NCBI RefSeq assembly: GCF_029603165.1
Contig: NZ_JAQSVC010000003.1
Span: 558,001 to 622,000, forward strand
Direction of reading: 5' to 3'
DNA: 64,000 nucleotides
Origin: Galbibacter pacificus
GTDB lineage: Bacteria > Bacteroidota > Bacteroidia > Flavobacteriales > Flavobacteriaceae
Positions 16,968-63,927 of this stretch are shown here, one piece after another; positions within the stretch are counted from its first letter, which is position 1, and each line of letters starts with the position of its first letter. A program made the translations under genes and the position numbers. The notes beneath the pieces were generated by a model, which searched no databases, was not told the DNA's origin, and saw only the letters and a list, made by a program, of their open reading frames with translations.

Positions 16968-16971
16968 GACT

Positions 16972-17568: not shown

Positions 17569-17571
17569 AAC

Positions 17572-18414
17572 ATGCAGGGGATGCTTTTATATATCGGACT
17601 GGAATATGTGGACGCTGTTTTCCAGGCAATCAAAAATAGCGACTTCTCCCGCTATACCATTACCGGGGTCAAATCCCTGGCAGTGCTTTTGTTCTTGGTC
17701 AATATCCTAAAGAAATACCATGAAGGCGCGGTAGCACGCGACGGATATACCTGGGGACTGTCCCCGGGGGAACTGGTCAAAAACTTTGCCGTGGTGCTAC
17801 TGGTTATCTTCTCGACCCGGATACTCGGCTTTTTTGATGCAGTTCTAGTAGCGGTAGAAAGCAGTTACAGGGATACGGCCCCAGCGCTCCTTCCCTTGCA
17901 GTTACAGGATGTGGAGATCGAGCGGGAAGTGGGCGCCGTGGAAGCCGCCAAAAAGGCATTGGCCCTGCTGTATGAATCCCTGGTGACCCCGCTCTATGGC
18001 ATGAAGCTCCTGGCCTTTATCCTAGCCGTTTTCTTGTGGTTGATGGACCTGTTTATCTATCCGCTGTTTTTGACAGAGCGCTATTTTCTTTTGGGGATCA
18101 TGCAGGCTTTCTTTCCACTGGTCATCAGTTTGGCGGTTTTTGAAAAATTCCGGGGGCTCGCCTATAATTATTTTAAGCTCTATACCGGCGTGTACATGCT
18201 GGTACCGGCCTTTTTCCTAGTCAATGTCTTTGTCAACAACCTCTATCGGGAAATCAGCGGGAATTTCTGGAATGATCTTTTTGGAACTGACTGGGGGTCT
18301 GAATTTTTTGCGCCGCTGATCGAACTGGCCACTGTGGGCTTTATCGTGCTCATCAAATTTAAACTGTACAAGAGGGCGACCTCCTTTGTCTTTAGACTGT
18401 TTACAGGAAACTAA
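17572..18414 (+). CDS. TraJ-like polytopic membrane protein (VirB6-type)
   Basis: 280 aa with at least five hydrophobic segments, including AVLLFLVNIL, LAFILAVFLWLMDLFIYPLF and MLVPAFFLVNVFV. Size is a little below the usual TraJ (about 300-380 aa). Position after the TraI-like gene and before the VirB8-like gene is the standard order. It would form part of the inner-membrane channel. Confidence 0.7.
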   Translation: MQGMLLYIGLEYVDAVFQAIKNSDFSRYTITGVKSLAVLLFLVNILKKYHEGAVARDGYTWGLSPGELVKNFAVVLLVIFSTRILGFFDAVLVAVESSYRDTAPALLPLQLQDVEIEREVGAVEAAKKALALLYESLVTPLYGMKLLAFILAVFLWLMDLFIYPLFLTERYFLLGIMQAFFPLVISLAVFEKFRGLAYNYFKLYTGVYMLVPAFFLVNVFVNNLYREISGNFWNDLFGTDWGSEFFAPLIELATVGFIVLIKFKLYKRATSFVFRLFTGN

Positions 18415-18447
18415 GTAACAAACCATACAAATTACAAGACTTCTCAG

Positions 18448-19062
18448 ATGAAACTAAAAACACCTTATAAGAACATTTACCGGGTACTGGGGCAAAACCG
18501 GCTCCTTGTGCTTGCTTCTATAATTGGGAGTGTGATTACCTCGGTAGTCTCCCTGCTACTGGTCATCAGACTCCATAAAGAAACCCTTCGAAATGCCTTT
18601 GTGATTGGCCGTCATGGGGATGTGATCCCCTTAAAGGTAGCCACGGAACGGGAGAGCCTAAAGGTAGAGGCACTGGCGCACCTGGATCGTTTTCACCGCT
18701 GTTTTTATGGGCTGGATACGGGAAATTACAGATCACAACTTGAAAAGGCCCTCTGGTTGGGGGACAGCTCGGTGGATGAAGTCTACCGCCAAAAAAAAGT
18801 TGAAGGGGTCTATAACCGGTTGCTGCAATATGCCCTTTTGCAAAAAGTAACCGATGTACAGCCCAAAGTCCATCTTGACAAGAAGCCCTTTGTATTTGAA
18901 ACGCAAGTGTACTTTGAAATCAAAAGAGGCGGGGTGACCGACCGGTACAAGCTGGTGACCAGCGGGAAACTTATCCGTATTGCACGGAATTTTCCGCACA
19001 ACCCGCATGGGCTTTTGATAACGGATTTCTATGAAAACAGCCTGCAAAAATTAAACCCTTAA
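18448..19062 (+). CDS. TraK-like inner-membrane protein (VirB8-type)
   Basis: 204 aa: short cytoplasmic tail, one membrane span (LLVLASIIGSVITSVVSLLLV, about residues 19-39), then a periplasmic domain of alpha/beta type (AHLDRFHRCFYGLDTG, LLQYALLQKVTDVQPKVHL, YKLVTSGKLIRI). This is the size and plan of TraK, the VirB8 equivalent that nucleates the channel. The gap to the preceding gene is 33 bp and to the next 13 bp. Confidence 0.78.
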   Translation: MKLKTPYKNIYRVLGQNRLLVLASIIGSVITSVVSLLLVIRLHKETLRNAFVIGRHGDVIPLKVATERESLKVEALAHLDRFHRCFYGLDTGNYRSQLEKALWLGDSSVDEVYRQKKVEGVYNRLLQYALLQKVTDVQPKVHLDKKPFVFETQVYFEIKRGGVTDRYKLVTSGKLIRIARNFPHNPHGLLITDFYENSLQKLNP

Positions 19063-19075
19063 ACTTTTTAAGATT

Positions 19076-20026
19076 ATGGAATGGACAAAAGACAAAAAGA
19101 AACTGATCTTTATGGGAATGGTGCTCTTTGCCCTCCTATTTATCGGGGCCTATGGAATCCTGACTTTTGGAGGGGGCAAAGAGCCCTTTTTAGAGAAGGG
19201 AACGGTAACGGTTCCCGAACTGGAAAAAGATACAGAAGCATATAAGTCGCGCCTGGAAGCCGTAGATGCCCTGGAAGATGAGCGGGAGACCACGGTGCCG
19301 AGTGTATACCCGGAAAAGTATCTCGACAGCTCGGGATATTACAACAAAAACCTGTCGGACATGGAAAAGAAACGGATCATGGACAGTGTGTACGAGTTGG
19401 GAAAACAGCGGTATCAAAAACTGCATTCATACCGGAGTCCAACTTCAAAAGCAGCGACTAACAGCGCTGTTAAAAAGCGAGCGCAATCCAAAAAGGAGCA
19501 AATAAAAGAAAAAAAGACCCACATTAAGGAACTGGCACTGGCGCATCAACTGTTTTTTGCCTCCAACCCCCAAACAATCCCGGCCTTATCGGTAGCCGGA
19601 AAACAAATGGCCGCTATTCCCGTAACCGTTAAGGGGACACAACGCGTTAAGGCACACGAGCGTTTGGCGTTAAAACTTGAAAAAGCGGTTACCATAGGCA
19701 GAAGACACTTTAAACGGCACACCCCGGTGTACGGGATAGTATCCTTTAAGCCCAACCGGACCTTATTGCGTATTGATAATATCACGGGCATTCCAATAGC
19801 AATGACGGCCTATGACCTGCAGGACGGCGGGGAAGGCATCTATATCAAGAACAGTTTTCGGGAACAGGCCCGAAAGGAAGTCTTGGGCGATGTGGTGGAA
19901 GATATAAACATAGCCGGGTTGCCCCAGGTAAACGGGATCAAACGGATTTTTCAAAGAAACAACCGAAAGGTAAAGGTCACAGTCCATGACAACTACCATT
20001 TACTGTTAAAACCAACTGATCATTAA
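19076..20026 (+). CDS. TraM-like protein (VirB10-type)
   Basis: 316 aa: a membrane span near residues 9-31, a Lys/Glu-rich linker (about 100-150), and a C-terminal domain closely following Bacteroides TraM (VKAHERLALKLEKAVTIG, HTPVYGIVSFKPNRTLLRI, AYDLQDGGEGIYIKNSF, VTVHDNYHLLLK). VirB10-type proteins span from inner to outer membrane and gate the pore. The usual small gene traL, expected between traK and traM, is absent: only 13 bp separate the two. Confidence 0.85.
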   Translation: MEWTKDKKKLIFMGMVLFALLFIGAYGILTFGGGKEPFLEKGTVTVPELEKDTEAYKSRLEAVDALEDERETTVPSVYPEKYLDSSGYYNKNLSDMEKKRIMDSVYELGKQRYQKLHSYRSPTSKAATNSAVKKRAQSKKEQIKEKKTHIKELALAHQLFFASNPQTIPALSVAGKQMAAIPVTVKGTQRVKAHERLALKLEKAVTIGRRHFKRHTPVYGIVSFKPNRTLLRIDNITGIPIAMTAYDLQDGGEGIYIKNSFREQARKEVLGDVVEDINIAGLPQVNGIKRIFQRNNRKVKVTVHDNYHLLLKPTDH

Positions 20027-46304: not shown

Positions 46305-46316
46305 TGGTGGTCCCAC
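46305..46316 (-). other. candidate attachment-site remnant (tRNA 3'-end-like)
   Basis: On the minus strand GTGGGACCACCA has the form of a tRNA acceptor 3' strand (TGGGACC), discriminator A and CCA, directly followed by an intrinsic terminator, as at the end of a tRNA gene. The rest of a tRNA is not present. Integrated elements that target tRNA 3' ends leave just such a copy at the far end. With a tyrosine recombinase at 56944-58221 this could be the left junction. The match is short, so this is inference. Confidence 0.35.
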
Positions 46317-46479
46317 ATGTATTGTTGTTTATTATACTCACATACTGTAAATCACAGTATAATAGAGTGTTTGTACTTTCAATTCTGTATATCGAAGGGT
46401 TATATACACCCATATAGATGTATAAAGGTTTGAGCATCGATTGGAAATATTTAGTTATTTTAAACCTATAGCTTTAATT

Positions 46480-48318
46480 TTAAATTGTAAAATCATGGTT
46501 AAAAGCATTCCTTGATAAATAAGCCATAAAGTTTTGAAGTAAATCAGTAGAATATGGCGTTCTATAATTTTTAGTTCGCTTCATCTTGAAGTCAAATGTC
46601 CTATTTTGTTTATTATAAACATCATTGTTACCAATATTAAAATCTTTAATACAATAAGGCTTTTTAATATATGGTTTTAGTAGTCCCAATTTTTCTTTAT
46701 CTGCTACGGAATCACTTATTTCATTAAAAGCAATTATAGCTTTTTCGTGATTGGAATATATAGAATGAAGTTTTTCATATCTCCTTTTCCAATGCGATTG
46801 AATTAATTCATTTGCGGGTTCATCAACATTCAAGTCTATTTTACAAATGCCATTTGGATTAAATACTGCTAAGTCAAGAATATCAAGTTCAACAATAGTA
46901 AATTTTGGAAATTCAACACAATATTTTTCATTATCAGAGTTATCAGTTGTTTCTAATACTTGATGAGTTAATGGACTAACCTTTCCAGAACTTATTTTTC
47001 TAATGGGAACTAAATGCCCTTTGTTATAATTATAATTTCTCTTACCAAATTGACTGTTATTTGTCCTTAGAGAAACATTACAAGGTTGAATTAAAAGTAT
47101 AAATTCTTTATTACCAATCTTAAAAACATCCCCGTTAGATATTGGTATATTCAACTGGTTTATTATTTCATCAGAAAAATATATTTCCTTTGTTCTTAAT
47201 TCAATTGCTTTAGCATCCTTATTAGAATATTTATAGCCTGTATCTACATCAATATCTCTAATTCTTGAAACAGCATTGTTAAATTGTCTCCTCATTTCCA
47301 CATCAATTAAGCTTTGGTGGTTATTAGAATTAATCATCAAACTAAAAACTCTAAAAAGTTCTTTAACTTCCAAAGTCCCTTCTTCTCTTGCAGACTTCTG
47401 AATTATCTGATTGAATGTTTTAGGAGATATTGCTTTCAGTTCATCAAAGGAATCATCTATACTTTTTTGTAGTATTTTCTCAGAAATTTCTTTCAAATTT
47501 TCAATATACCTTAATGCTACAATATTTTTAACTCCATCTGCAAATGCAGATAATCTAGGGTCATAGGCATATCTTTTCTTTGAAACTGTATAAAAAGAAT
47601 TTTTTTCAATATCGTACTCCCTCGTATACTGAATTCGATATTCATCTTCTTGCTCTACACTAAAAGTATGTGAAAATATACCACAATAAACAGACTCTGA
47701 TTTATCGCTTTCCACAATTCTTTTGGCAAGGTCGACTCCATTTCTTTCCCCTCGCTTACCTTTCCAATCTTTAATAAACTCAAAATCAAACAGAAACAAT
47801 CCCTTTGTAGTTTCCTGTAATCCGTTTAAAATTTCATCCTCTTTTTCTTGCCATTCATCTGGGGTAAACACTTCAACTATATCTTCAAAATCCTTTTGAA
47901 TTTCCATAAGTGGCACTACATTTGAGCTTTCATCATCTCCAATAATAGAGCATATATTATGATAAAGTTCTATTTTATTCCCATTTTCCCATAAATCAGA
48001 GATATCACTCTCAAACTTCGGCATAGGAGCTGTCCATTCAATAGAGTTAAAACCCTCTATTGTGTCAATTTCTCTTTCAGATCTTTCTACCTCATTTTTT
48101 ATCCTTTTCATTTTAGAATTAAACGAGGTTTTAATTTCATCAGGTTTGAACCTATCATCAATGTAATAAATTTTAGATACACCTTCTTTTTCTAAAATTT
48201 CAAGTACGGAATCAATAGCTTTTTGCCTATTCTCTCTATTTTGATTTTGAATCCTAAGTTCAGCAATCTTTTTTTCTAAAACTACCCTTTGTTTTTCAAG
48301 TTGATTTAATTGTTCCAT
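46480..48318 (-). CDS. receiver-like domain protein, putative effector or regulator of a defence operon
   Basis: 612 aa. N-terminal coiled coil (1-30), then a receiver-like fold with a long insert: acidic pair in KIYYIDDRF (Asp54, Asp55), a strand with the equivalent of the phospho-acceptor Asp in LFLFDFEF (Asp178), and VYCGIFSHTFS where the conserved Thr/Ser should be. The C-terminal 300 residues contain GDVFKIGNKEFILLIQPCNV and RYEKLHSIYSNHEKAIIAFN and match no family I can name. The gene starts 1 bp after the stop of the double-GHKL protein, so the two are a coupled pair, apparently a modified two-component system. Confidence 0.65.
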   Translation of the reverse strand: MEQLNQLEKQRVVLEKKIAELRIQNQNRENRQKAIDSVLEILEKEGVSKIYYIDDRFKPDEIKTSFNSKMKRIKNEVERSEREIDTIEGFNSIEWTAPMPKFESDISDLWENGNKIELYHNICSIIGDDESSNVVPLMEIQKDFEDIVEVFTPDEWQEKEDEILNGLQETTKGLFLFDFEFIKDWKGKRGERNGVDLAKRIVESDKSESVYCGIFSHTFSVEQEDEYRIQYTREYDIEKNSFYTVSKKRYAYDPRLSAFADGVKNIVALRYIENLKEISEKILQKSIDDSFDELKAISPKTFNQIIQKSAREEGTLEVKELFRVFSLMINSNNHQSLIDVEMRRQFNNAVSRIRDIDVDTGYKYSNKDAKAIELRTKEIYFSDEIINQLNIPISNGDVFKIGNKEFILLIQPCNVSLRTNNSQFGKRNYNYNKGHLVPIRKISSGKVSPLTHQVLETTDNSDNEKYCVEFPKFTIVELDILDLAVFNPNGICKIDLNVDEPANELIQSHWKRRYEKLHSIYSNHEKAIIAFNEISDSVADKEKLGLLKPYIKKPYCIKDFNIGNNDVYNKQNRTFDFKMKRTKNYRTPYSTDLLQNFMAYLSRNAFNHDFTI

Positions 48319-48319
48319 G

Positions 48320-50815
48320 TTAGTCCTTAATTACATTAGCAAGGTTTATAGCAAAAATATACTTCCGCCCTTCAGCGTTTCTTTCCCCTTCTAATGCTAT
48401 ACTACAATTAATACTATCTAATAATTGATTTACAATAAATAACCCTAACCCTCTACCTTCTCCTTTTGGCTTAGTGGTTACAAAGGGTTCAAATAAATGG
48501 TTTTCTACAGAAGTAGGAATCCCATATCCATTGTCACTTATATATATCCAAGGAGAATCTATAGCAATGGTCATTTCTGGAGAAAAATTGATATTACTCC
48601 TTTTATGCTTAAGCCAATACTCTGAATTAATAACAATATTGTCAATTATTTGAGTAAGCCGCCCTTTATTAACCTTAACACTAAAATCTTCCACAGACTT
48701 AATATTAAATGAAATCTTAGAGTTTTTGAATCGATTTTCATAATATGCTTTTTCTTCTTTAAAAAAAGACTCAATAGAAAATGTGTCTCTTTTCTCTCTA
48801 CTATATTTAAGTGCAGGGTCTAAATGTTTTAGCTGCACTTTCAATCCGTTAACTGTATTATTTATATACTCCATTAGTACATAACTGTCATTATTAGAGA
48901 GAGTATTGGAGTGCAATTTATTTGAGTAAAAATTCGATTTTTCAGAAAGATTATCTGCTATATTAGCAAATTCATGACTTATTGTTTCAGCAGTAAGACC
49001 TAAAGCAGCCAACTCTGAAAAATCATCAATCTGTTCCTCTAAAACCTGTATTTTAGGTTCAAGAATATTGATTACTTCCTCAACTCTTTTTGATTTGTCA
49101 ACTATTGCTTGAAGTTTTATAAAATTATCTTGAACTTTTTTTAATCGGTCTAATAGTTCCTTTGCCTTTTCGTATTCCCTATGGTTTTCTTCAGAAGCGA
49201 ACAAAGCATTATTCTCTACTTCTTCAACAATTATTTTCTGTTCCTTAACTGTTTTATCTAATGATTTTGTAGCTTCTGCAATCTCCTTTTGATTTATCTG
49301 TAAAGAAGCCTCTTTAATTCCCTTAAGCTCTTCAAAAGACTCTGTTGTTGTCCTTATTCCATTATTTTCTACCTTGTAGTCTTTTAAAAATTTATCATAA
49401 CCCCTCCTGATTGTTCTTTGATAAATATTTAAGGTATCAATAATAAAATGAGCGATTTTAAAAAAATTTGAAGTATAGGGGTTAGAAACAAAACCTTGTC
49501 TATCAGTTTTCTCTTTTAAATGAAAGTTTTCTGCTTCGTCAATAGCAAAATAACCAATTGTATTTCCAGGACGCAAATCATAGAAAGTAGTTTTGGTTTG
49601 AGACTCTGACATTTTCAACCAGTCTTGATTTTCAATTCCGTATGGTAAAACGGCAAACCCATTTCGATAAATTTTAATACCTAATTGGTTTTTAGCAAAC
49701 GCTTTATAATCTGCCTTGCTTCCAAAAACCTCGGATGATATATCTTCTTTACTTGAAAAACTATACTCATCTATTTTACCTTCAAAGAACCCTGGATTTG
49801 CATGCCTCATTTTCTTTTCTCCATTAACAAAGGTTTCAACTTTTTCAATGTTCGGAATATCCTTGTCGAAAGAAAATGATTGCTCAAACTCTAAAAAGTA
49901 CCCAGCATTATTAGACAGACTTATATAATTATATTTTTTAGCAATAAGATCCCCGAATTTTTTACCATTATCAGGTTGTATATAAGTATTATAATCTTCC
50001 CAACTCTCTGTTTTATTACCCCGAAACTTTGTAAGCTTAGTTTTTCCTTTTACTATAAGCTCAAAATTACTATTTTTATTTAGTTGAAAATAGAACTCAA
50101 ATCTTGAAATAGCAAGGTCTCTTAAATGTTCATTTGATTCTTCAATATCAACTGGAATACCATTTATTGAAATATAAACTTTAAAGGGTCTGTTTTCTTT
50201 GTAGGGAGATATCAGTTGAGAAACTTGCCCTTTAAAGCGTTCAAGGTTTTTCCCTTTCCATACTTCGGGGTAGCTGATATCTCCAAGAACTAATATTGTC
50301 CCCGTTTTTTTATTTGTTTCAAAACTTGAAGATTTAATATCAACATCACTCAACTTTTCAACTTTATCAAAATCTTTCCAATCAAATGCTAAATGAACTC
50401 CTTTATCATCAATCTTTTTTGTAAGAATTTCACATTTATTAGCAAGCCTTTGAGTACTTAACCTTCCAAGTCCTTTATCTCCTAATGGGGTTCTTCCTTC
50501 AGGTGTTTTCTTTTTTTCTTCTTTAAACTTTCTTTTTTCGGAGTTTGATATTATTAACCATGATTTAAGTATGGTTTCTTCATTCATACCAAATCCATCA
50601 TCTTCTATCGCAATAAATCCATTATGATTAGGGTATATAAGTTTTTCTTTTTTATACTGACCTGCTGTACTTATATCTATTGAAACATATGAGGCATCAG
50701 CATCATAAGAGTTTTTAATCAACTCCAACAAAGCAGTTACCTCATCAGGAACAAGCTGCTCTCCAAGCTGTTTTACAATATGAGGTGTTATATCAAACTT
50801 ATACTTTTCAGACAT
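48320..50815 (-). CDS. MORC/Hsp90-like protein with two GHKL ATPase domains
   Basis: 831 aa. N-terminal Hsp90/MORC-type ATPase: ELIKNSYDADAS (residues 31-42), DDGFGMN (72-78), GDKGLGRLS (112-120). A long central region with coiled coils (about 480-600) follows. The C-terminal third is laid out like a histidine kinase: ETISHEFANIADN with His614 at the DHp position, N-box DNIVINSEYW (725-734), DNGYGIP (about 761-767) and GRGLGLFI (about 788-795). Prokaryotic MORC-like ATPases are known from restriction-modification neighbourhoods. The gene lies 4 bp after the methyltransferase stop, so joint action is likely. Cytoplasmic. Confidence 0.85.
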   Translation of the reverse strand: MSEKYKFDITPHIVKQLGEQLVPDEVTALLELIKNSYDADASYVSIDISTAGQYKKEKLIYPNHNGFIAIEDDGFGMNEETILKSWLIISNSEKRKFKEEKKKTPEGRTPLGDKGLGRLSTQRLANKCEILTKKIDDKGVHLAFDWKDFDKVEKLSDVDIKSSSFETNKKTGTILVLGDISYPEVWKGKNLERFKGQVSQLISPYKENRPFKVYISINGIPVDIEESNEHLRDLAISRFEFYFQLNKNSNFELIVKGKTKLTKFRGNKTESWEDYNTYIQPDNGKKFGDLIAKKYNYISLSNNAGYFLEFEQSFSFDKDIPNIEKVETFVNGEKKMRHANPGFFEGKIDEYSFSSKEDISSEVFGSKADYKAFAKNQLGIKIYRNGFAVLPYGIENQDWLKMSESQTKTTFYDLRPGNTIGYFAIDEAENFHLKEKTDRQGFVSNPYTSNFFKIAHFIIDTLNIYQRTIRRGYDKFLKDYKVENNGIRTTTESFEELKGIKEASLQINQKEIAEATKSLDKTVKEQKIIVEEVENNALFASEENHREYEKAKELLDRLKKVQDNFIKLQAIVDKSKRVEEVINILEPKIQVLEEQIDDFSELAALGLTAETISHEFANIADNLSEKSNFYSNKLHSNTLSNNDSYVLMEYINNTVNGLKVQLKHLDPALKYSREKRDTFSIESFFKEEKAYYENRFKNSKISFNIKSVEDFSVKVNKGRLTQIIDNIVINSEYWLKHKRSNINFSPEMTIAIDSPWIYISDNGYGIPTSVENHLFEPFVTTKPKGEGRGLGLFIVNQLLDSINCSIALEGERNAEGRKYIFAINLANVIKD

Positions 50816-50819
50816 AATA

Positions 50820-52130
50820 CTATACCTTAAAAATTAAAATTTTCTCCTTATTCATAGTTTTAGAAAAGTTATTTTTACCAGGCATTCGTTTACTAAGAAT
50901 ATCCCTGTCTAAATCGGTTAATAGCTGTACTCCTTTGTGCTCCATCAACTCGATTAAAATTGAATCGTTCTGAACCTCTTTTGTGTTAACATTTCTATTA
51001 CCTACTGTCCATGCCATATAAGAATTAGGCATCATCTTTTTTAGAGCATTATCAATTGTAATGCTTAAATCATTTATAAAAACAACTACTTTTCGTGCTT
51101 TCATTTTCTCTTCTTCGGTAAATCCTTGGAAAAAATCCTTTAGAGAATTAGAAATGTCAAAGTACTCTTCTTCTATTTTACGATAGTCAGATATTAATTT
51201 CCCACCTAAACTTCTTCTGTCAATTTCTTGTATCACGTCTAAATAGTTCATATCAATTGAGCTATCAATATCTGCTACTGGAATCCATTGTAAAGGTAAA
51301 TATGAGAACTGACCGTAGGTAACTGTAGTATGGTTGTCCCCATAAGGAGGTGAAGTTACGAGAAGATTGTATTCTTTATTAGTATTTAATTTCTTTTTAG
51401 AATCACCCCATGCAACTTGAACATCATAAATATATTTGTCATTTATTATAAGATCATTCTCAATCAACTTCTGTTTAACCATAAAAACATCATCAATACT
51501 TCTTTTACATACCTTTAGAAAATACTTAACAGGGGACACCTGTCTACTGTGAATTTCTTCTTGTTTTCTAATATGCATTTTAAATGTTGATGTTCTATCG
51601 TTATTCGTTAAACGAATAACTTCCGCTAAAGCAACCCAATAAAATTTTCTTATAAATAAATTTTCTTCTTGAATAATTAATCTTCTAATCTGTGATAATT
51701 CAATCTGAACCTCTTTTTTAAACCATTTATCAATATTTTTAAAACTAATGTCTATTTTTTCCGAACGAGCTCTATGTATACGCTTTTTTAATTTAGAAAA
51801 ACTTACTTTTAAATCTTCTGAATAAATATAAGTCTTTACTTGACTTATTAATAGCGACAATGGGTTTATATCCTGACCAAATGAATTTATACCATAACGC
51901 ATTGATGTAATGATAGTGTTTGAGGCTCCCATAAAAGGATCTATCATTGAAGAGTTTTCTGGTAAAGCGTCAATTAATGTTTTTATTATAGGCTCCTGAA
52001 CACTTGGAACCATCATAGCAGGATAATTCAATATTTTTCTTGCATAGTCATTTCTATCAAAACTATTACCATTTAATACTTCAGCACTAATGGAACTCAA
52101 CTCTTTTTTTAAATTTATGGTGGATATCAC
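50820..52130 (-). CDS. DNA methyltransferase (TSPPY type, likely N4-cytosine)
   Basis: 436 aa. Catalytic motif IV TSPPYGD at residues 259-265 and AdoMet-binding motif I SMIDPFMGAS at 61-70, with motif I before motif IV. TSPPY is typical of m4C enzymes; m6A cannot be excluded. The region between (about 100-220) carries helices that may be the target-recognition part. It is followed within 4 bp by the double-GHKL gene, with an HEPN-like gene 67 bp upstream. No restriction endonuclease is recognisable beside it, so the killing part of the system must be one of the other genes. Confidence 0.85.
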   Translation of the reverse strand: MISTINLKKELSSISAEVLNGNSFDRNDYARKILNYPAMMVPSVQEPIIKTLIDALPENSSMIDPFMGASNTIITSMRYGINSFGQDINPLSLLISQVKTYIYSEDLKVSFSKLKKRIHRARSEKIDISFKNIDKWFKKEVQIELSQIRRLIIQEENLFIRKFYWVALAEVIRLTNNDRTSTFKMHIRKQEEIHSRQVSPVKYFLKVCKRSIDDVFMVKQKLIENDLIINDKYIYDVQVAWGDSKKKLNTNKEYNLLVTSPPYGDNHTTVTYGQFSYLPLQWIPVADIDSSIDMNYLDVIQEIDRRSLGGKLISDYRKIEEEYFDISNSLKDFFQGFTEEEKMKARKVVVFINDLSITIDNALKKMMPNSYMAWTVGNRNVNTKEVQNDSILIELMEHKGVQLLTDLDRDILSKRMPGKNNFSKTMNKEKILIFKV

Positions 52131-53304: not shown

Positions 53305-53790
53305 TCAATATTCAGACGAGAGCATTAACGTACAATAATTATCCTCTGTAGAATATTGGTTGCTTTCAATCATAGCTTTACTTAACTGATCAATAAAAAA
53401 CAGCTTACAATCGTGTTCAATTAAATAAAATACTTGCAGATAATCTATCCCTTTATGTTGCTCCACCAAATCTTGAGTGAAAATGTAAATTTCCAAAATC
53501 TCATTTGCAGTCAATGTGTTTCGAACTGTTTGAGTAACATAAAACACACCATTAAAGTAATAATCTCCTTCTTCTTCCTGTAATTTATATTCAAGATTAC
53601 TCCTAAAGGTATATGTACTTATTAAGTTGGCAAGTTCTTGTTTTGAATAATCAAGTTGTTCTGCTATTTGCGCATTAGTAAATTGGAGTTGTTTAAATTT
53701 TAGATATTTTTTATAATCTCCAATCAATTTACGGTCTTGATGTGCTGATTCCATAACGAAAAGTTTTTCTACAACTTTCCGCATTTTCAT
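53305..53790 (-). CDS. hypothetical protein with N-terminal helix-turn-helix
   Basis: 161 aa. Residues about 30-60 (KFKQLQFTNAQIAEQLDYSK then QELANLI) look like a helix-turn-helix; the rest is mixed (YYFNGVFYVTQTVRNTLTAN, LIEHDCKLFFIDQLSKAMIE). No family recognised. It lies at the border of the putative defence operon and the replication part of the element. It may be a regulator. Confidence 0.5.
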   Translation of the reverse strand: MKMRKVVEKLFVMESAHQDRKLIGDYKKYLKFKQLQFTNAQIAEQLDYSKQELANLISTYTFRSNLEYKLQEEEGDYYFNGVFYVTQTVRNTLTANEILEIYIFTQDLVEQHKGIDYLQVFYLIEHDCKLFFIDQLSKAMIESNQYSTEDNYCTLMLSSEY

Positions 53791-55756: not shown

Positions 55757-56284
55757 CTACGACGATTCAAAACTTTTTGTTACAATCTTTCTCCCCCCAC
55801 TATGGGTTTCATACCGTGTTAAAAAACCTTCTTTAAATAATTGTTTCGTCCAAGCTGTAATACTTTGGACGGAAACCCCAAGTCTTAAGGCACTATACTC
55901 TCTACTAGCAAAATACACTTCTCTACCTTTGCTAAACGAATTATATTCCCCCCATAATAATTTTGCTCCTGGATTTAATTTATAGCTGTATACAGGATAA
56001 AAAATATAAATATTTCGTTCTTTTTGATATAGTTCATTTTTTACTATCACATAACCCGCCTCATTCTTTTCTATCAAGTGCGCTTCAATTAAATTCATTT
56101 GTGCTTGCCCCACTAAATTTGGATGAATCCCAAGCATTCGAGCGATACTTACATTTGTGTATCTGGTATACCCTTTCTTTTTAGAAAGGGCATAATGTAT
56201 CCCATATACTAATTTATCGTTAGGCTTTAACGTTTTTAGTGATAAAACTGTTTGTGGTATAATTAAACATATGGTTGATGTCAT
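55757..56284 (-). CDS. Rep-like protein with two winged-helix domains
   Basis: 175 aa made of two similar halves: KLVYGIHYALSKKKGYTRYT followed by NVSIARMLGIHPNLVGQAQM, and KLLWGEYNSFSKGREVYFAS followed by YSALRLGVSVQSITAWTKQL. Each ends in a short 'LIEKN' or 'FLTRY' strand. Tandem winged helices are the plan of iteron-binding replication initiators, and four 22-bp iterons lie 20 bp upstream of the start. It may start replication and repress its own transcription. A purely regulatory helix-turn-helix role is the alternative. Confidence 0.6.
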   Translation of the reverse strand: MTSTICLIIPQTVLSLKTLKPNDKLVYGIHYALSKKKGYTRYTNVSIARMLGIHPNLVGQAQMNLIEAHLIEKNEAGYVIVKNELYQKERNIYIFYPVYSYKLNPGAKLLWGEYNSFSKGREVYFASREYSALRLGVSVQSITAWTKQLFKEGFLTRYETHSGGRKIVTKSFESS

Positions 56285-56303
56285 TTTTTTATTTTTTATT
56301 CAA

Positions 56304-56385
56304 TCACCGATTTTGGATTTTATGCTCACCGTATTTGGACTGTCGGCTCACCGATTTTGGATTCGACTACCACCGATTTTAGCCC
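56304..56385. repeat. four 22-bp iterons (putative replication origin or Rep operator)
   Basis: TCACCGATTTTGGATT at 56304, TCACCGTATTTGGACT at 56326, TCACCGATTTTGGATT at 56348 and CCACCGATTTTAGCCC at 56370: exact 22-bp spacing, two helical turns, with the last copy diverging at its 3' side. The array lies directly upstream of the Rep-like gene, and an AT-rich stretch follows at 56386-56420. This is the architecture of an iteron origin. Confidence 0.75.
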
Positions 56386-56525
56386 TATATATAATAAGTT
56401 AATATAAACAATGAATTAACTAGTGAATTAAGAAATTGGGAACAAGTTCGAAGAAAACTACGTTTTCATCATTGTTCCTCTTTTTATTTCTAAAACCATT
56501 TTTCAAGGGAGAAGTGTTTCAAAAA

Positions 56526-56894
56526 TTAATTGTCGATACAATAACCGTTAGCCTTTAAATACATCCTCCCATTTTCATGTTTCGATAGCTTATTGATACA
56601 GTTCTGCAAAATTTCTTTTTTTGATAACCAACCCAATACTCCCAAATTTTCTAAAAGAACTGCTTCCAATGTTTTATGGCATAAGTCAACGGACATAAGT
56701 TTATCAAGCCCAATAGAAATTGTTTTCTTTGAAAGGTATTCCTCAAACATTACCAATTTGTCACTATCATCAATAAGTGATATCCATTTTGTTTTTAATC
56801 GTCTTGGATAATACACTCTTTTGGTTGCCATATTTTCAATGCATGTATCGATTAACTTAATTAATTGCTTCATTGTTATTTTTTTTCCTGTCAT
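56526..56894 (-). CDS. hypothetical protein
   Basis: 122 aa, mostly helical, lysine-rich (MKQLIKLIDTCIENMATKRV, KWISLIDDSDKLVMFEEYLS). No family recognised. It lies between the integrase and the iteron region, where excision or replication accessory genes are common. Confidence 0.45.
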   Translation of the reverse strand: MTGKKITMKQLIKLIDTCIENMATKRVYYPRRLKTKWISLIDDSDKLVMFEEYLSKKTISIGLDKLMSVDLCHKTLEAVLLENLGVLGWLSKKEILQNCINKLSKHENGRMYLKANGYCIDN

Positions 56895-56943: not shown

Positions 56944-58221
56944 TTATTCTGTTTCACTCGAGATTCTTTCCCGATTACTTTGGTTAAAGTATTTTAACAT
57001 CAGTTCTGCGTTTTCTTCCATCGATATTTTTATATAAGATCTAAACGCTACTTCTGTTCGATGTCCTGTAATCTGCATGACAACACGGGAAGGAATTCCT
57101 CTTTTAAACATATTGGTTGCGAAAGAGCGTCTTGCCGTATGCGTGGAAATTAACTCGTACTTTTTGTAAACTTCTTCAATTCGATTTTTTCCGCTATTTC
57201 GGATTTTCAACACTTCTTGATCAAACCCAGCAAGTGCTCCAATCTTTTTTAAATATTTGTTCATGGTTTGGTTGGTAACAGATTTGGGCAGGGAGTTCAC
57301 ACTTACACCTCTATATTTTTCCATAATTTTTTTCACAGGTTCAAGTACGGGAATCTGCACCCACTCATCCGTTTTTTGAGTTTTAATTTTAAGAATCTCT
57401 CCTGAAAAATGCTCTTTTCTAATTTTACTGAAATCACTAAAACGCAACCCTGTATAGCAGCCAACGATGAACAAATCGCGAACTTGATCAAGTTTGCAGT
57501 CATCTGATAAATCTAAACCTATTATTTGCCGTAACTCTGCTTCAGTAAGATAAATATTATTGGTTTCTTCCTTTAACGTTTTAAAATTTTTGTGCTTGTA
57601 TTGTGTAAAAGCATTATACCCTTTATCAAAAGCATCGTTTAGGATCACTTTTAATATTTTAATGCATCTGCCAAACCCATTGTTGGTATACCCTTGTACA
57701 CCAGTATAGAACTCCAAGAAATCGTAGTAAAAATCCATATCAAAACTGTTCCAATCAAGTTTTACCCGAGCATATTTTTCGTACTGCTTTAACTTGTTGA
57801 GTGTTGTTTGATATGTTTTAACCGTACCCTTGGTCTTATTTGATTTGCTGTCCTGTAAATACTTTTCTGCATACTGGAAAAAGGTATATTGCATTATTTT
57901 TAGCTTCTCTTCTTTTCCTTTTTGATACTGCTGTTTAACAAGGTGTGTCATCGGGTCAATGCCATCTATCATCATATCGTTGGCAATATCGTCAACCTTC
58001 TGGCGTAGTTTTTTTAAATAGATATTAAAACGATCACTTCCAGGGCAACTTTTCTTTACACACTCCCTTTTAGTATCCCAATAATTATCTTCTATGTTTT
58101 TACTCGTGGTAAAATAGGTTACCTTTTTTTTATGCGTATATCGCAACATCAACATTGATTTTCTGCTTTTAATCTTTTTTTGATGCTGTGATTTATTCAA
58201 AACGAACTTTAAACTAGCCAT
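56944..58221 (-). CDS. tyrosine recombinase (integrase)
   Basis: 425 aa. N-terminal Arm-type domain (SMLMLRYTHKKKVTYFTTSK), SAM-like core-binding domain (about 105-205, TFFQYAEKYLQDSKSNKTKG) and catalytic domain with the first Arg in GCYTGLRFSDFSKI, HTARRSFATNMF (His-x-x-Arg) and ITGHRTEVAFRSYIKI (His and nucleophile Tyr). This is the type that integrates Bacteroidota elements, often at tRNA 3' ends. All catalytic residues are present, so it is likely active. Confidence 0.93.
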   Translation of the reverse strand: MASLKFVLNKSQHQKKIKSRKSMLMLRYTHKKKVTYFTTSKNIEDNYWDTKRECVKKSCPGSDRFNIYLKKLRQKVDDIANDMMIDGIDPMTHLVKQQYQKGKEEKLKIMQYTFFQYAEKYLQDSKSNKTKGTVKTYQTTLNKLKQYEKYARVKLDWNSFDMDFYYDFLEFYTGVQGYTNNGFGRCIKILKVILNDAFDKGYNAFTQYKHKNFKTLKEETNNIYLTEAELRQIIGLDLSDDCKLDQVRDLFIVGCYTGLRFSDFSKIRKEHFSGEILKIKTQKTDEWVQIPVLEPVKKIMEKYRGVSVNSLPKSVTNQTMNKYLKKIGALAGFDQEVLKIRNSGKNRIEEVYKKYELISTHTARRSFATNMFKRGIPSRVVMQITGHRTEVAFRSYIKISMEENAELMLKYFNQSNRERISSETE

Positions 58222-58318: not shown

Positions 58319-59194
58319 TCACGGTGCTTTTTCATTGTATATTGTTTCTAACTGTTGAAGTGATTTCCTACGCTTACTCTTTTGAGAAGGAGAGAGTTTC
58401 ATCGTGTCAATTAACTTAGAAACCAGTGTATATGTAGATTGACCATATTGTTGTTCCAGTTGCTTCAGTCCTGCGTACAAAACATCGGAGAACGTATTTC
58501 CGATAGGCTCGATGCAAAGCTGCTTTTCAAGGCAAAGCGAACTGTGATGTGTATGTAGCATTGTATCAAAATATTCTTTTGTCGATTGTTGACATAGCTG
58601 TTCCACTGAAGTCGGTTTTTTCATAACCTTCGAAACATCTGTGAGTTTGAGCTCATGCTTTATAAGGTTTTCTTTCGGGTAATTTCCCCTACGATATGTC
58701 TTCTTTGATTTTGCATTTTTAACCGCATCGTATATCTTATAATGTAATTTACCATTACCAAACATTTTCAAATGGTTACTGGATTTTTCAATTTGATAAT
58801 CGTAAACCCCAATTATCTTAGAAAGGTACTCTCTGGCTTCTTGATTTATGCGCTCATAGGCCCCATATTCTATCTGCGTAACATGTGACTTAATCAACTT
58901 TAAGCCAATAATATCCGACAACAATAATATGGTTTGTAGTAAATCACTTTCGTCAACACTTATATAATTATGGTTATGCAATAAATAAGGGATACTTGTT
59001 TTAATCTTTAAAAACCCGTTTCCGTTAACAAACATTCCAAAACGATCACCATGCAAAGAAGAGTTTGCTTTAAGTTGATAGTAGTTATGAAGTGTTGGAT
59101 GTGGCTTTAAATGTTGCCATTTTATTTGACTTCGATTTACATTTGGCAATGTAATCTCAATAAAGTCATACTGATAGTGATGTAATTGTTTCAT
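58319..59194 (-). CDS. putative phage-type replication initiator (gene II/Rep_trans-like)
   Basis: 291 aa. SHVTQIEYGAYERINQEARE, KMFGNGKLHYKIYDAVKNAK and NLIKHELKLTDVSKVMKKPT recall the gene II/CRI and Rep_trans proteins (a strand-rich core with a K-x-Y-D motif and an R/K-H-E-L segment) that nick DNA to start rolling-circle replication. The catalytic Tyr cannot be assigned. It follows the family A polymerase gene by 30 bp on the same strand. A second replication gene in the element would fit a plasmid-phage hybrid. Tentative. Confidence 0.45.
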   Translation of the reverse strand: MKQLHHYQYDFIEITLPNVNRSQIKWQHLKPHPTLHNYYQLKANSSLHGDRFGMFVNGNGFLKIKTSIPYLLHNHNYISVDESDLLQTILLLSDIIGLKLIKSHVTQIEYGAYERINQEAREYLSKIIGVYDYQIEKSSNHLKMFGNGKLHYKIYDAVKNAKSKKTYRRGNYPKENLIKHELKLTDVSKVMKKPTSVEQLCQQSTKEYFDTMLHTHHSSLCLEKQLCIEPIGNTFSDVLYAGLKQLEQQYGQSTYTLVSKLIDTMKLSPSQKSKRRKSLQQLETIYNEKAP

Positions 59195-59224: not shown

Positions 59225-60526
59225 TTAATGAGCCATTGCCCAATTACTTCCTTTTTCAAGTCCGACCTCTAAGGGCACTGTTAGTTTTACAACATTTTCC
59301 ATGGTTTCTTTAACTAACTTTTCAACTTGATGCGCTTCATCTTTAGGGCACTCTACAAGGATTTCATCATGAACCTGTAATACAATTTTTGCTTTCAATT
59401 GTTTTTGAATTATTTCATTATCCAGCTTGATCATCGCTTTTTTAATGATATCTGCCGCAGTTCCTTGGATAGGAGAGTTCATTGCTATTCGCTTACCGCT
59501 TTTGCGTTCGGATAATTTGTTAGAGCGTAACTGCGGTATAGGGCGTCTTCTACCAAATAGGGCGGTGGAGAACCCATTTTCTTCTGCTTGTTTGATAAGA
59601 TCATCCAAGCATTGTTTTACTTTGGAGAATCTATTAAAATAAGTTGTCATTAACTTTTCGGCTTCTTCTTTGCTGTGCACTTTACCTGTAACCTGTGTTA
59701 AAGATTCTGCCAGTCCCACTGATGTCATTCCATAGATTAACCCAAAGTTGATGCTCTTGGCAACCTTGCGCTGCTGATCTGTAATACTTTCCAATGAACT
59801 ATCATATACCTGAGAGGCGGTTAACGTATGGATATCCAATCCGTTATGGTAAGCATCGAGTAAAAAAGGATCTTGACTGTATACAGCTGTAATACGTAGC
59901 TCTATCTGTGAATAATCCGCACATATAAAAATCTTCCCCTTAGCAGGAATAACAACTTCCCTGAACTTTGATTCCAGTATTTTTAATGGGTTGGTTTCGT
60001 CCGCATCTAATTTTACATTAGGAATATTTTGCAAGTTTGGTCGACTACTGCTAAATCTTCCTGTGGCTGTACCAATCTGGTGAAACCCCGCATGTATGCG
60101 TTTTGTTTTAGGGTGTACATCACTCAACTGACCAACAAACTTTAACAGACTGTTTGACTTTCTATAGTCCAGTAAAAGCTGTATTATCTGATGCTGCTGT
60201 TTTATTTTGTTCAAGTGTTTTTTATCAACTGGGAATAAACCTTTTTTATTCTTGGTTGTTATCTGAGGTTTTAACTGTAATTGCTCGAACAAAGCAACAC
60301 TTAACTGCTCGTTGCTATTGATATTTACAGTCGTTCCTATAATTTGGTGAATTGCTTGTTCCAAATCTGATTTTATTTGCAAGAGCTCGTTTCCCATATT
60401 TTGTAGCATCGATACGTTTATTTTAATTCCCGATTGTTCCATCCGTGCAACAACGGGTGTCAACTGCTGTTCCATTTGGTAGGTATCAGCCCACCAAAAA
60501 GTTTTGTCTGTTTGTTGTTTATTCAT
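59225..60526 (-). CDS. family A DNA polymerase, polymerase domain only
   Basis: 433 aa, about half of PolA. Motif A DYSQIELRITA, motif B RKVAKSINFGLIYG and motif C LQVHDEILVE are intact, as is the thumb region (GRFSSSRPNLQNIPN). The 5'-3' nuclease and 3'-5' exonuclease domains are absent; the exonuclease is encoded at the 3' end of the neighbouring gene, which overlaps by 8 bp. The polymerase and proofreading parts are therefore two polypeptides. It probably replicates the element. Confidence 0.92.
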   Translation of the reverse strand: MNKQQTDKTFWWADTYQMEQQLTPVVARMEQSGIKINVSMLQNMGNELLQIKSDLEQAIHQIIGTTVNINSNEQLSVALFEQLQLKPQITTKNKKGLFPVDKKHLNKIKQQHQIIQLLLDYRKSNSLLKFVGQLSDVHPKTKRIHAGFHQIGTATGRFSSSRPNLQNIPNVKLDADETNPLKILESKFREVVIPAKGKIFICADYSQIELRITAVYSQDPFLLDAYHNGLDIHTLTASQVYDSSLESITDQQRKVAKSINFGLIYGMTSVGLAESLTQVTGKVHSKEEAEKLMTTYFNRFSKVKQCLDDLIKQAEENGFSTALFGRRRPIPQLRSNKLSERKSGKRIAMNSPIQGTAADIIKKAMIKLDNEIIQKQLKAKIVLQVHDEILVECPKDEAHQVEKLVKETMENVVKLTVPLEVGLEKGSNWAMAH

Positions 60527-62570
60527 CTTCTTGTAATTTTTGTGTTAAATAATGGTATAACTGTAGTGTTAGATCGGCATCTTCTACAGCATATTGGGTA
60601 AGTTCATCTACAGGGACTTCTGTAATATCTTTGCCGTCAAGCATCTTTTTAAAACTTATTTGCTTATACCCAAGATGTAACTCGGAGATTTCCTTGAGTC
60701 CATGAATTTTACGATTTGGGTCTAATAAATAATCCAACAACATAGTATCGTGGATTACTCCACCTAACTGTATGTTGTAATGGTGCAAAAATTTGCAATC
60801 GAATTTATAGTTATGGAACACTTTGCTGATGGTCCCATCTTCTAAAAACGTTAGCAACGGTGCTAGAAACGATGCTACTTGAGCACTCTGTTTTGGTAAA
60901 AAAACATTATACCCCTTATGCTTCTCAACTGAAATGGCAACGCTTATGATTTTCCCTTCTAATGGATCAAGACTGGTTGTTTCTAAATCTACCGCCATAA
61001 TCTTCTCCTTTACAGTCTCAAAATGTTTGGTAAGCGCTTTCACCATTTTGGTCATCTTGATAGGAGTATTTACAGTTTTATAAGAAACGTCAACATCTTT
61101 AAGCGTAAGGAATTGTTGCTCTTTATTATATGCTTCGCCTATAATCTGTATATAGGCTTTGGTATTCTGCGGAGTCTCTATATAATCAATCTCCTTGCAT
61201 GCTAAGTATTTCTTTAGCTTTATGGTAAAAGTACGTTGGGTAGGGCGGTTCTTAGCAAGTACATACCCTCCTGCTATGAAATCTTTGTACTGTTCCTTTT
61301 TGTGAAATCTTGAAGTGGTCGATGTAAGCAACTCATCAAAGAAATCCATATACTCGATACCTACTTCGGTAACAAGGCGACGTTGCTCTAAGTGAATACT
61401 TGGAGCTTTTATCAACCCTTTTTCAAGGTATAATTGAACGCAGCAAAGCATGAAAAATGTAAACTCATTCCATTGTTCCTGATTCCAATCATGGAAGAAA
61501 TAGTGCCCGAAATCATCGTATACTGTAAGGTGTTTTCCGTAATAATCGCCAAGTTCAAACAGATACAGGCGTCTATCGGTACTATTTCCTGAAGGGGCTT
61601 TAAGCATGTGATTTGAAGTGAACAACCGCTTTGGGCTTCTATTAAATGGAATTTTAACAACAGGCTTATACTTTTGATTAATTGTAATTCCTTCGGTCAG
61701 ACCAAAGTGATTTTCGAAATTTTCATTCGGTTTTAAATCGTTAATACAAAGGATATTTGTTGAAGCTGTTACACTACCGAATTTAAAGTCGTAACTACTA
61801 CTAAATTCTTTGCCATCGATATCTATTAGCGAGCGCATATAACCAAGAGAACTTGCTTTCAACGATTTCCCACGCCCACCCTCTATCTGTCCGTCCAACT
61901 CATTTATATGGGCATCCAACAATACAATTGCTTTCGTATTGGCGGGGTCTTGAAAACGGCTTAACAAGTAACCCGTCACGGTCATAAGCGGTTCAAAACG
62001 TGTTGGGTCTTGATTGCAGATATTATAGCAGAACAAAGCGTATGGCGTTGCTAAAATATCTTCAGCTTTAGGAGGGGTGTACACTCTATCTACTATTTGT
62101 TCTTTTAATACATAGCCTTGCAAATCCTTGTAAGCAATACAGCTAATCTCTTGTGCGGTTACCTTAACAACCGTATTTTTGAAGTAGAAATAACTCTCTG
62201 TTGCTGTATCGAAATGTAAATCAATATGTTTCAAAGGCAGAAACATCAGTGAAGGGTTCCCCAATAAAAACTGGGTTTTATTAAGAAGTTTTCCCTTTAT
62301 TGCATCTTTTAAAACATCTTCATCAACTTTAAAGTCAAAATTGGCATCCAACCAACGAAGTTCATAATCAATGATAAAAGTCTTATCGTCGAAAACCTCA
62401 ACAACATTATCTTCAATTCTGGCATACTGACGTGTTCCATAGATCATTGCATTACAGTAACCATGATCTTCAGCTAAGTGTTTCATGAACTTCAAGTTGT
62501 CTATACATAGCGTTCCTTTTTTATCCGAATACCAATAAGAGATAAAATCTCCGTTGTTATACTTCCCCAT
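60519..62570 (-). CDS. SF3-type helicase fused to a PolA-like 3'-5' exonuclease
   Basis: 683 aa. Residues about 210-400 form an SF3/D5-like helicase core: Walker A EGGRGKSLKA, Walker B-like NILCINDLK and a motif C-like RLFTSNHML. The C-terminal 160 residues are a DEDDy exonuclease as in PolA: AVDLETTSLD (Asp528, Glu530), HNYKFD (586-591) and YAVEDADLTLQLY (Tyr660, Asp664). It overlaps the polymerase gene by 8 bp, so helicase plus proofreading and polymerase are made together. The N-terminal 200 residues are unassigned and lack obvious primase motifs. Confidence 0.8.
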   Translation of the reverse strand: MGKYNNGDFISYWYSDKKGTLCIDNLKFMKHLAEDHGYCNAMIYGTRQYARIEDNVVEVFDDKTFIIDYELRWLDANFDFKVDEDVLKDAIKGKLLNKTQFLLGNPSLMFLPLKHIDLHFDTATESYFYFKNTVVKVTAQEISCIAYKDLQGYVLKEQIVDRVYTPPKAEDILATPYALFCYNICNQDPTRFEPLMTVTGYLLSRFQDPANTKAIVLLDAHINELDGQIEGGRGKSLKASSLGYMRSLIDIDGKEFSSSYDFKFGSVTASTNILCINDLKPNENFENHFGLTEGITINQKYKPVVKIPFNRSPKRLFTSNHMLKAPSGNSTDRRLYLFELGDYYGKHLTVYDDFGHYFFHDWNQEQWNEFTFFMLCCVQLYLEKGLIKAPSIHLEQRRLVTEVGIEYMDFFDELLTSTTSRFHKKEQYKDFIAGGYVLAKNRPTQRTFTIKLKKYLACKEIDYIETPQNTKAYIQIIGEAYNKEQQFLTLKDVDVSYKTVNTPIKMTKMVKALTKHFETVKEKIMAVDLETTSLDPLEGKIISVAISVEKHKGYNVFLPKQSAQVASFLAPLLTFLEDGTISKVFHNYKFDCKFLHHYNIQLGGVIHDTMLLDYLLDPNRKIHGLKEISELHLGYKQISFKKMLDGKDITEVPVDELTQYAVEDADLTLQLYHYLTQKLQEDE

Positions 62571-62865
62571 CTTTTTGCTGATTTAATTGTTTAAAGAAAT
62601 GTTCTACTTCTGATTGCTTATAGCGTTTGGCTTCCCCTATGCAGTGAGTTGGGAAGTTCTTGTGCTTTTTCTTAAGCTTGTAAAAATGACTGGTGGATAT
62701 TTGTAAGAGGTCGCATAGTTCCACATCCTTAAGTAGCTTTTCGTTATGAGTAGAAACAACGGAAGCTGGAAGATCGGGAAGAGAAACGATTACTCGCTCT
62801 GCTATCCGATGCTCCAGCTCCGTGATTATTTTTAAAAGATGATATGTTAACTCTTTATCCTCCAC
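62557..62865 (-). CDS. AlpA/excisionase-like DNA-binding protein
   Basis: 102 aa. The C-terminal half (LLKDVELCDLLQISTSHFYK, then KHKNFPTHCIGEAKRYKQSE and VEHFFKQL) is the MerR-like winged helix of AlpA/Xis proteins. It overlaps the helicase gene by 14 bp. It probably controls excision or the replication operon. Confidence 0.8.
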   Translation of the reverse strand: MEDKELTYHLLKIITELEHRIAERVIVSLPDLPASVVSTHNEKLLKDVELCDLLQISTSHFYKLKKKHKNFPTHCIGEAKRYKQSEVEHFFKQLNQQKDGEV

Positions 62866-62961: not shown

Positions 62962-63927
62962 TTAAATGTTTTTCATTCTTTCTTTAAGAAATTCTTCATG
63001 TGTTTTGGAAGGACTCTCCTCAACCGCTTTTTGGTAACCTTCCCTAATATATGGAAAAGCGTTATACAGAGCAATCATAAAATGGTAACGGGTTACTTTC
63101 TGATATTTATACTTCTTGGGCTGAAGTTTCTTTAGGAATGAACTGGAGGAAGATAATTTTTCATCAATTGTTTCATTTATCTCACCAAAGTAATCTTTTT
63201 TCTTCAAATGGTCTGAAACGTTTTCTCTGTATGATTTTATTACCCTTCTGATTGCTTGTTCAAGTAATGATTTGGATTCCACATGTAAGTACAATAATTT
63301 AAGTTCAACCAAATTATTGCTATATGTCTCAAACGTGTTATAAAATAGTTGTTCTATTGAAGGATAGTCCAAACAATCGTTGAGTTCATTAAAAAAATCA
63401 TTCCTAAATTTTTCTCTATGCTCTTTATCTACATGTAAAGGGATTCGATTATAAATTCTAAAATTTATTTCTTCTTTTTCTGTCTCTTCTGTCTCTTCTG
63501 TCTCATTTTTTTCATTTTTTCCAAAAAACCTCAAGGGTATCTCGGAGGTTATTCTATTTTCCTTCTCCTTTTCAGAAATTCCTAAAATAGCAGAAAACTC
63601 TTTAGAAAGTAATCTAATATTTTCAGAGTTTGTGGTTTTTAGTATTTTCTCCGCATTACGTGCAATTTTACTCAAATATTCAGAAGTGTCATCAGTGCTA
63701 TAATCATGGTAAATTTGTGTTAGCCACAGATCTAAAAAACTTTCTTTATCAAGACTAAAATATTTTGAAGCATAAAGAAATAAAAAATATTTCTCCCCAA
63801 CAGTAAACTTATGAAGGTTATTCTTAAAATAATCAGAGGCAAGATTTTCTTCTTCCAAAAGAACATCTAGAAATTTAAAAATCTTAATTACTGATTTAAT
63901 CGGTATATCTGATAAATCGTGATTCAC
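62962..63927 (-). CDS. hypothetical protein of the element
   Basis: 321 aa, helical, no signal peptide. It holds an acidic low-complexity stretch (KNETEETEETEKEE, about residues 138-151) and a basic helical end (KKYKYQKVTRYHFMIALYNA, SKTHEEFLKERMKN). No family recognised. It lies upstream of the AlpA-like gene on the same strand with a gap of 96 bp. The element probably continues beyond the window. Confidence 0.55.
   Translation of the reverse strand: MNHDLSDIPIKSVIKIFKFLDVLLEEENLASDYFKNNLHKFTVGEKYFLFLYASKYFSLDKESFLDLWLTQIYHDYSTDDTSEYLSKIARNAEKILKTTNSENIRLLSKEFSAILGISEKEKENRITSEIPLRFFGKNEKNETEETEETEKEEINFRIYNRIPLHVDKEHREKFRNDFFNELNDCLDYPSIEQLFYNTFETYSNNLVELKLLYLHVESKSLLEQAIRRVIKSYRENVSDHLKKKDYFGEINETIDEKLSSSSSFLKKLQPKKYKYQKVTRYHFMIALYNAFPYIREGYQKAVEESPSKTHEEFLKERMKNI

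Follow-up and report, generated by a model that had tools for sequence, protein, structure and literature searches.

A candidate iteron replication module with a double winged-helix protein in a tRNA-Met-associated integrative element of Galbibacter pacificus

Does an integrated element in Galbibacter pacificus carry a replication origin of its own? The question arose at a locus within a 64-kb stretch of DNA (the window: positions 558001–622000 of the source contig, in a genome of 4.04 Mb), where the earlier note had proposed an iteron origin with a double winged-helix Rep protein inside an integrated element. Window coordinates are used below, and the 175-aa double winged-helix protein encoded at 55757–56284 on the minus strand is labelled dWH. 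The stretch is probably the replication module of a ~17.9-kb integrative element at tRNA-Met, with a RepE-like iteron replicon, whose replicative role we infer. The array, a RepE54-like predicted fold, the integrase and a layout kept across genera supported the proposal in part; membership of Rep_3 was not borne out by sequence, and no plasmid form was found in the records searched. The core of the locus comprised:

55757–56284, minus strand: dWH, 175 aa, candidate replication initiator with two predicted winged helices (open reading frame, PHROG matches, model and fold searches)
56300–56321, minus strand: iteron unit 4, 15 bp from the ATG (repeat search, matrix and reading of arrays, as for units 1–3)
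56322–56343, minus strand: iteron unit 3
56344–56365, minus strand: iteron unit 2
56366–56387, minus strand: iteron unit 1, distal, adjoining the AT-rich stretch
56388–56423, minus strand: AT-rich stretch (86% A+T) abutting unit 1, candidate DNA unwinding element

The pattern CACCGNNTTTNG matched four times in the 64-kb window, at 56305, 56327, 56349 and 56371, all in a 22-bp register, and a fourfold match occurred anywhere in 0 of 100 shuffles of the window (mean 0.33 matches). TRF independently called an array of period 22 at 56304–56363. Read along the minus strand, the 22-bp units occupy 56387–56300, and the dWH ATG comes 15 bp further on. The four repeats with a shared core, their exact 22-bp period and their position just upstream of the gene were therefore as first described. 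The A+T level of 56388–56423 was equalled by 0.9% of the 36-nt windows in the 24-kb stretch tested.

In the GTDB genome collection, a scan by pattern found 13 dWH loci (L051–L063), in Flavobacterium, Winogradskyella, Aquimarina, Chryseobacterium, Mesonia and metagenome bins, which together with the window and genome G154 made 15. The array was found upstream of the dWH gene, immediately behind an AT-rich stretch, at 14 of the 15 loci including the window, with G154 as the exception. In the 400 bp upstream of the gene, 22 was the best of the periods 15–40 at 12 of 15 loci, and the period-22 score was above those of all remaining 400-bp windows in its locus at 12 of 15; these counts include the near-identical L052 and L053, and for L062, one of the 12, the 22-bp segment counted was not the array read by eye. 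The score was reached elsewhere in G154 (21 of 206 windows), L051 (6 of 192) and L063 (5 of 192, including one perfect repeat). The best period of L062 was 24, and the analysis of L056 was swamped by a GTA microsatellite. The first unit began with TAAG, TAGG or TACG in all 14 arrays read, and the 36 bases before it were 81–94% A+T in all 14, a level matched by 0.2–6.7% of the windows of the same locus; the first-unit anchors were set by eye for all 14 arrays, G154 being left out, and the position directly after the AT-rich stretch was thus not a blind observation. The kinds of unit among the loci included GAAATGCAAAATTGGTGA, AACAAAATTAGTGA and GAAGTTTAGTAATTTAG.

A repeat matrix was built only from 25 repeat copies of five other loci and species (L051, L052, L054, L055 and L057). 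It scored the four-copy array of the window at 36.6 (56300–56387, minus strand), and the best window site outside the array, overlapping registers aside, at −12.6 on the minus strand and −22.2 on the plus strand. The highest score was −6.2 among 40 first-order Markov sequences (both strands) and −5.6 among 30 mononucleotide shuffles (one strand). An earlier single-unit matrix ranked one window unit first and the other three outside the top ten. Iteron divergence tracked dWH divergence across 13 loci (Mantel r 0.60; 1 of 5000 permutations), with L053 omitted as near-identical to L052 and G154 as having no array. Such co-divergence would fit binding of the repeats by dWH, and shared ancestry alone could give the same result. 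The strict DnaA box TTWTNCACA was found at 0 of 15 loci in the 800 bp from −700 to +100 of the dWH gene start. An inverted iteron core, sought with a single consensus core and a tolerance of 2 mismatches in 11 positions, was likewise found at 0 of 15, in a search that a divergent operator would escape, as the core differs in some loci.

The genes beside dWH all lay on the same strand, and the following features of the surrounding element were recognized:

46307–46319, minus strand: 13-bp copy of the tRNA-Met 3′ end in direct orientation, between genes; candidate distal attachment site
46480–52130, minus strand: cargo region, with a 612-aa protein (46480–48318), a two-HATPase protein (48320–50815) and a methyltransferase (50820–52130)
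53305–53790, minus strand: 161-aa protein, found between integrase and array in four relatives, L051–L054 (cross-locus search)
56526–56894, minus strand: 122-aa conserved element protein with relatives in L052, L053 and L054 (cross-locus search)
56944–58221, minus strand: tyrosine integrase (domain matches Arm-DNA-bind_5, Phage_int_SAM_5 and Phage_integrase)
58319–59194, minus strand: 291-aa protein, with a predicted fold most like that of RepDE and other rolling-circle initiators (model and fold search)
59225–60526, minus strand: DNA polymerase family A, polymerase domain only (DNA_pol_A, E 1.4e-124)
60519–62570, minus strand: helicase-like N-terminal part fused to a PolA-type 3′–5′ exonuclease (exonuclease from domain matches)
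62557–62865, minus strand: HTH_17/excisionase-like protein, 102 aa (domain and PHROG matches)
62962–63927, minus strand: 321-aa conserved element protein, whose gene lies closest to tRNA-Met (cross-locus search)

The integrase stop was 660 bp from the dWH gene, the distance originally claimed. A tRNA-Met gene was located just past the window end, at window coordinate 64238–64312. With the 46307 side and this tRNA as its ends, the element would measure ~17.9 kb; the left end is provisional, because the 13-bp repeat is short and no empty site was readable. The chance of that 13-mer in 20 kb on both strands was ~1e-4 by arithmetic from base composition, for a copy chosen after screening 420 bp of flank in which other 12–14-bp matches also arose. 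In two other genomes the tRNA-Met and the left-flank relatives lay on different contigs (G030) or ~730 kb apart (G256), with no clean empty site readable in either, and the stretches fetched for G154, L053 and L057 contained no match of 11 bp or more to the tRNA end. An integrase together with an attachment-site duplication, by which integrative elements are recognized, was present in the window, where the duplication is the short 13-bp tRNA-Met copy, and in L059, where 19-bp direct repeats (489–507 and 11787–11805) flank an element of 11.3 kb, and one of the two copies is the 3′ end of mnmE. The mnmE-end sequence was present once in L062. The pair at 48320–52130 comprised a type II-like methyltransferase and the two-HATPase protein, whose N-terminus resembled a restriction-enzyme model (4e-11); the two are possible defence cargo.

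The 291-aa protein was modelled at high confidence (pLDDT 89.9). Its best fold matches were RepDE and a Geobacillus rolling-circle initiator (Z 9.8–10.4), followed by TATA-binding proteins (7.4), and the best Foldseek value was 2.6e-06. It was thereby alike in predicted fold to RepDE-type initiators (PDB 4cwe, 4cwc and 4cij; Z 10.4, 192 residues aligned), but unlike them it had no sequence match in PDB (E ≤ 10) or Pfam (E ≤ 0.1). On this model, the protein may act as a second initiator or as a relaxase. The helicase label was based on a Salinibacter plasmid relative annotated as primase-helicase and on a weak DUF5906 match in L055. The helicase-exonuclease stood beside a separate polymerase in the window (59225–62570), G154 and L052–L054; the helicase stood beside a fused exonuclease-polymerase in L051 (1804–5089); and all three were separate frames in L055 (2868–6232) and L057 (2569–5949). 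These three fusion and split layouts suggested that the helicase-like, exonuclease and polymerase parts work together. A wide helicase search hit 283 of 299 genomes, mostly through the PolA exonuclease domain, and only matches to the N-terminal part were taken further. No dWH match was found in six stretches with such N-terminal relatives (L042–L047), in two Salinibacter plasmid stretches or in a phage stretch. The Salinibacter ruber stretches belong to the circular plasmids pSR14 and pSR31 (L048 and L049), where the helicase-part relative lies beside terminase and ParA genes, as in phage-plasmids.

The 15 loci comprised two element types. Eight were of the window type (window, G154, L051–L055 and L057); the six of these from the scan carried the integrase, 291-aa-type protein, polymerase, helicase and HTH genes as in the window. 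The smaller type comprised seven loci (L056 and L058–L063), whose integrase matched the window-type profile weakly (E 2.4e-07 to 4.3e-12) and whose fetched stretches gave no polymerase or helicase match. A tRNA-Met gene was found beside four of the eight window-type elements (window, G154, L053 and L057), and the other stretches may end short of one. Eight proteins of the L059 element were scanned: dWH, integrase, an HTH_17 protein, a YobI-like ATPase, a lipocalin-like protein and three without match. None of these eight looked replicative except dWH.

G154, of the same family and another genus, encoded by tRNA-Met a 316-aa, an HTH, a helicase-exonuclease, a polymerase, a 320-aa and an integrase protein, in the gene order of the window. 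Its dWH gene (L040 8776–9315), with a product 36% identical to the window dWH, was located on the far side of cargo genes. There was no array upstream of it and no convincing periodic array within the element; the array may have been lost, have moved or never have been there. Family-wide, a dWH match was detected in 5 of 299 genomes, over most of the protein only in G000 and G154. The order and phylum samples, which overlap the family set, each gave matches in 4 of 395 genomes, again near full length in G000 and G154 only. Such a patchy spread is as expected of a mobile element. Three genomes (G138, G144 and G042) that each match only about half of dWH were set aside.

The dWH protein had also been described as consisting of two similar halves. 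By sequence the likeness was weak (one 19-aa match, E 0.006, two-sequence BLAST), and in the predicted structure it was clear: the model, from a 15-row alignment, contained two winged helices at a mean pLDDT of 82.5. The fold comparison with RepE/Pi-type initiators that the earlier note had suggested was run, and the predicted fold aligned over its full length with RepE54, the F-plasmid initiator, whereas Rep_3 membership was not borne out by sequence. VIA-align gave Z 8.4–9.2 over 169–173 residues (rmsd 4.1–4.3, ~10% identity), and the best alignment (Z 9.2, 172 residues) covered the whole length of dWH. RepE54 entries were the only structures aligned over more than 112 residues among the 50 matches listed; SSo2273 spans both domains at rmsd 8.0. 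Other Rep families did not appear among these 50 matches listed, which excludes nothing. Foldseek placed dWH against RepE54 at E 0.016 and TM 0.56. LexA, CRP and MntR matched one dWH domain at similar or higher Z, with LexA reaching 9.9 over ~68 residues.

In PHROG, the six best matches of dWH were replication proteins (best 2e-11) and the three weakest were regulators or HTH proteins (E ≥ 0.26). No Pfam family was above its cut-off for the window dWH. At E ≤ 0.01 the 15 dWH members matched 14 families, most commonly HTH_36 (10 members), together with MarR (4), HTH_Crp_2 (4), RepL (3), DnaD_N (2) and Phage_rep_O (1); neither Rep_3 nor RepA_N was among the 14. The profile searched against PDB by sequence came nearest to single-domain regulators, ScaR first (7.5e-06). 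The array layout and the predicted fold support the view that dWH would work like RepE; that it is a Rep_3 protein is not supported by sequence.

The chief rival explanation is that dWH is only a transcriptional regulator, whose binding to the repeats controls its own gene and possibly excision genes, and that replication, if any, is started by the RepDE-like 291-aa protein. We consider this unlikely, although several observations speak for it. The array ends 15 bp from the dWH ATG, and most of the matches listed, whether by structure or by PDB sequence, are regulators with a single winged helix. The window type also possesses a second initiator-like protein in the 291-aa product. TAnnTTTG, the Bacteroidota −7 motif, occurred in the 160 bp preceding the gene at 5 of the 7 smaller-type loci and at none of the 8 window-type loci (5 of 15, vs 2.25 expected). 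However, the smaller type yielded no match to a second initiator, and the best PHROG matches of dWH were to replication proteins. Ordinary operators are palindromic, whereas these repeats are direct and stand in a strict 22-bp register behind an AT-rich stretch, and no inverted copy of the consensus core turned up.

The array and dWH lay near an integrase gene in both element types, which could also mean that the repeats are arm-type or accessory integrase sites and that dWH is a directionality factor for excision. This is very unlikely: the window array is ~8 and ~10 kb from the candidate ends (64238 and 46307), the L059 array is ~1.9 kb from its nearer end, like arrays accompany the clearly different integrases of the seven smaller-type loci, and a separate HTH_17/excisionase-like protein exists.

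Plasmid and phage forms were also sought. In tblastn searches of 72,556 plasmid records, one of three dWH queries gave a single partial match (to an Enterococcus faecium record, over 39% of the query) and the other two gave none. Three partial phage matches (39–51% covered) were all annotated as replication initiation proteins or initiator. Pattern scans of viral contigs produced 44, 235 and 7 pattern matches, none confirmed as a dWH relative, and the iteron-pair pattern gave 0 matches in viral contigs. No circular record of the element appeared in the public plasmid collection searched. A decayed relic of a former plasmid, no longer working, would agree with the lack of a full-length relative among those plasmid records, but it is the least probable reading, with a very slight chance, since every core reading frame in the window is open and the array and protein recur together across genera.

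Against dWH as an initiator we counted the G154 element without an array, the failure of the strict pattern to find a DnaA box, the lack of a match to an inverted consensus core, the fact that no circle was found in the collections searched and the single-domain regulators at equal or higher Z. We also counted the Foldseek E of only 0.016, ScaR as the nearest protein by sequence, the lack of Rep_3, and the RepDE-like protein, which could be the true initiator.

In the favoured iteron-replicon reading, the integrase would excise the element as a circle. The dWH protein would fill the iterons on one face of the DNA, melt the adjacent AT-rich stretch and then recruit a helicase, and the excised circle would replicate by theta mode, like an iteron plasmid. 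Window-type elements would supply their own helicase, exonuclease and polymerase A, and the smaller type would need those of the host. By binding near the promoter of its own gene, dWH might limit its own synthesis. The recurrence of the array and dWH in elements of other species suggested that such elements may also live as free replicating circles.

Iteron replicons in integrated elements have a precedent in SGI1. Deletion of rep or of the iteron origin ended replication of SGI1 while excision was kept (PMC7433901), and its RepA bound the four repeats (PMC7826253); an integrated island can thus hold an iteron replicon. SGI1 is likewise an integrative element at a gene 3′ end, with an integrase, a rep gene and an iteron origin with four direct repeats and an AT-rich stretch, and it uses the mnmE/trmE site, as the L059 element does. 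It differs in its Rep, which is IncN2/N3-related, in being switched on by IncC plasmids, in an origin downstream of rep where the array here is upstream, and in iterons of 16–17 bp with at least one putative DnaA box, compared with 22 bp and no DnaA box found here.

According to a review (PMC4980987), F and pPS10 have four iterons, and R6K and pPS10 have 22-bp iterons; the window array has both properties, and the direct repeats near the dWH gene at 14 of 15 loci agree with the 17–22 bp expected of iterons. These RepE/Pi-type plasmids have tandem winged helices and an AT-rich stretch beside the iterons, as here, whereas the present system has no Rep_3 sequence match, possesses an integrase and showed no DnaA box or inverted operator in the regions scanned. 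A DnaA box in the origin is usual, not universal, for such replicons. The PLE satellites of Vibrio cholerae are also integrated elements with their own RepA and iterons, but their RepA is of the RepA_N family, whose iterons are mostly semi-palindromic, their recombinase is a serine recombinase, and their replication depends on phage ICP1 (PMC7145576).

Pipolins (PMC7385651) are integrative elements encoding their own DNA polymerase, which is a primer-independent family B enzyme; the window polymerase was a DNA_pol_A match, of family A, and was split from its exonuclease. We tentatively raise the possibility, which we hold to be somewhat doubtful, that the flavobacterial elements unite a new RepE-like initiator lineage, a small replisome of their own, variably fused, and a rolling-circle-type protein, which would make them the polymerase-A equivalent of pipolins, able to initiate in two ways. 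Among the literature matches listed, which left most subscription papers uncovered, no report of an iteron replicon in flavobacterial integrative elements or of this polymerase-A element was recognized by title or abstract. The kind of element is already known from SGI1 and PLE; the present one is set apart by its initiator lineage, its hosts and the polymerase module that goes with it.

The array and one small gene are a concrete, portable candidate origin in flavobacteria, and the pair lends itself to testing how elements inserted in a chromosome retain a plasmid-like existence. If functional, the array and dWH could serve as a replicon for genetics in flavobacteria, and the polymerase-bearing type, if the reading is true, would be an element carrying its own replisome.

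Two minor observations concern the surroundings. The L060 locus is on an 11.8-kb contig labelled Candidatus Sericytochromatia that carries a flavobacterial-type module, possibly a binning error. Far to the left in the window, at 14571–20026, there were conjugative-transposon genes (TraG P-loop and TraM matches), which apparently belong to another element.
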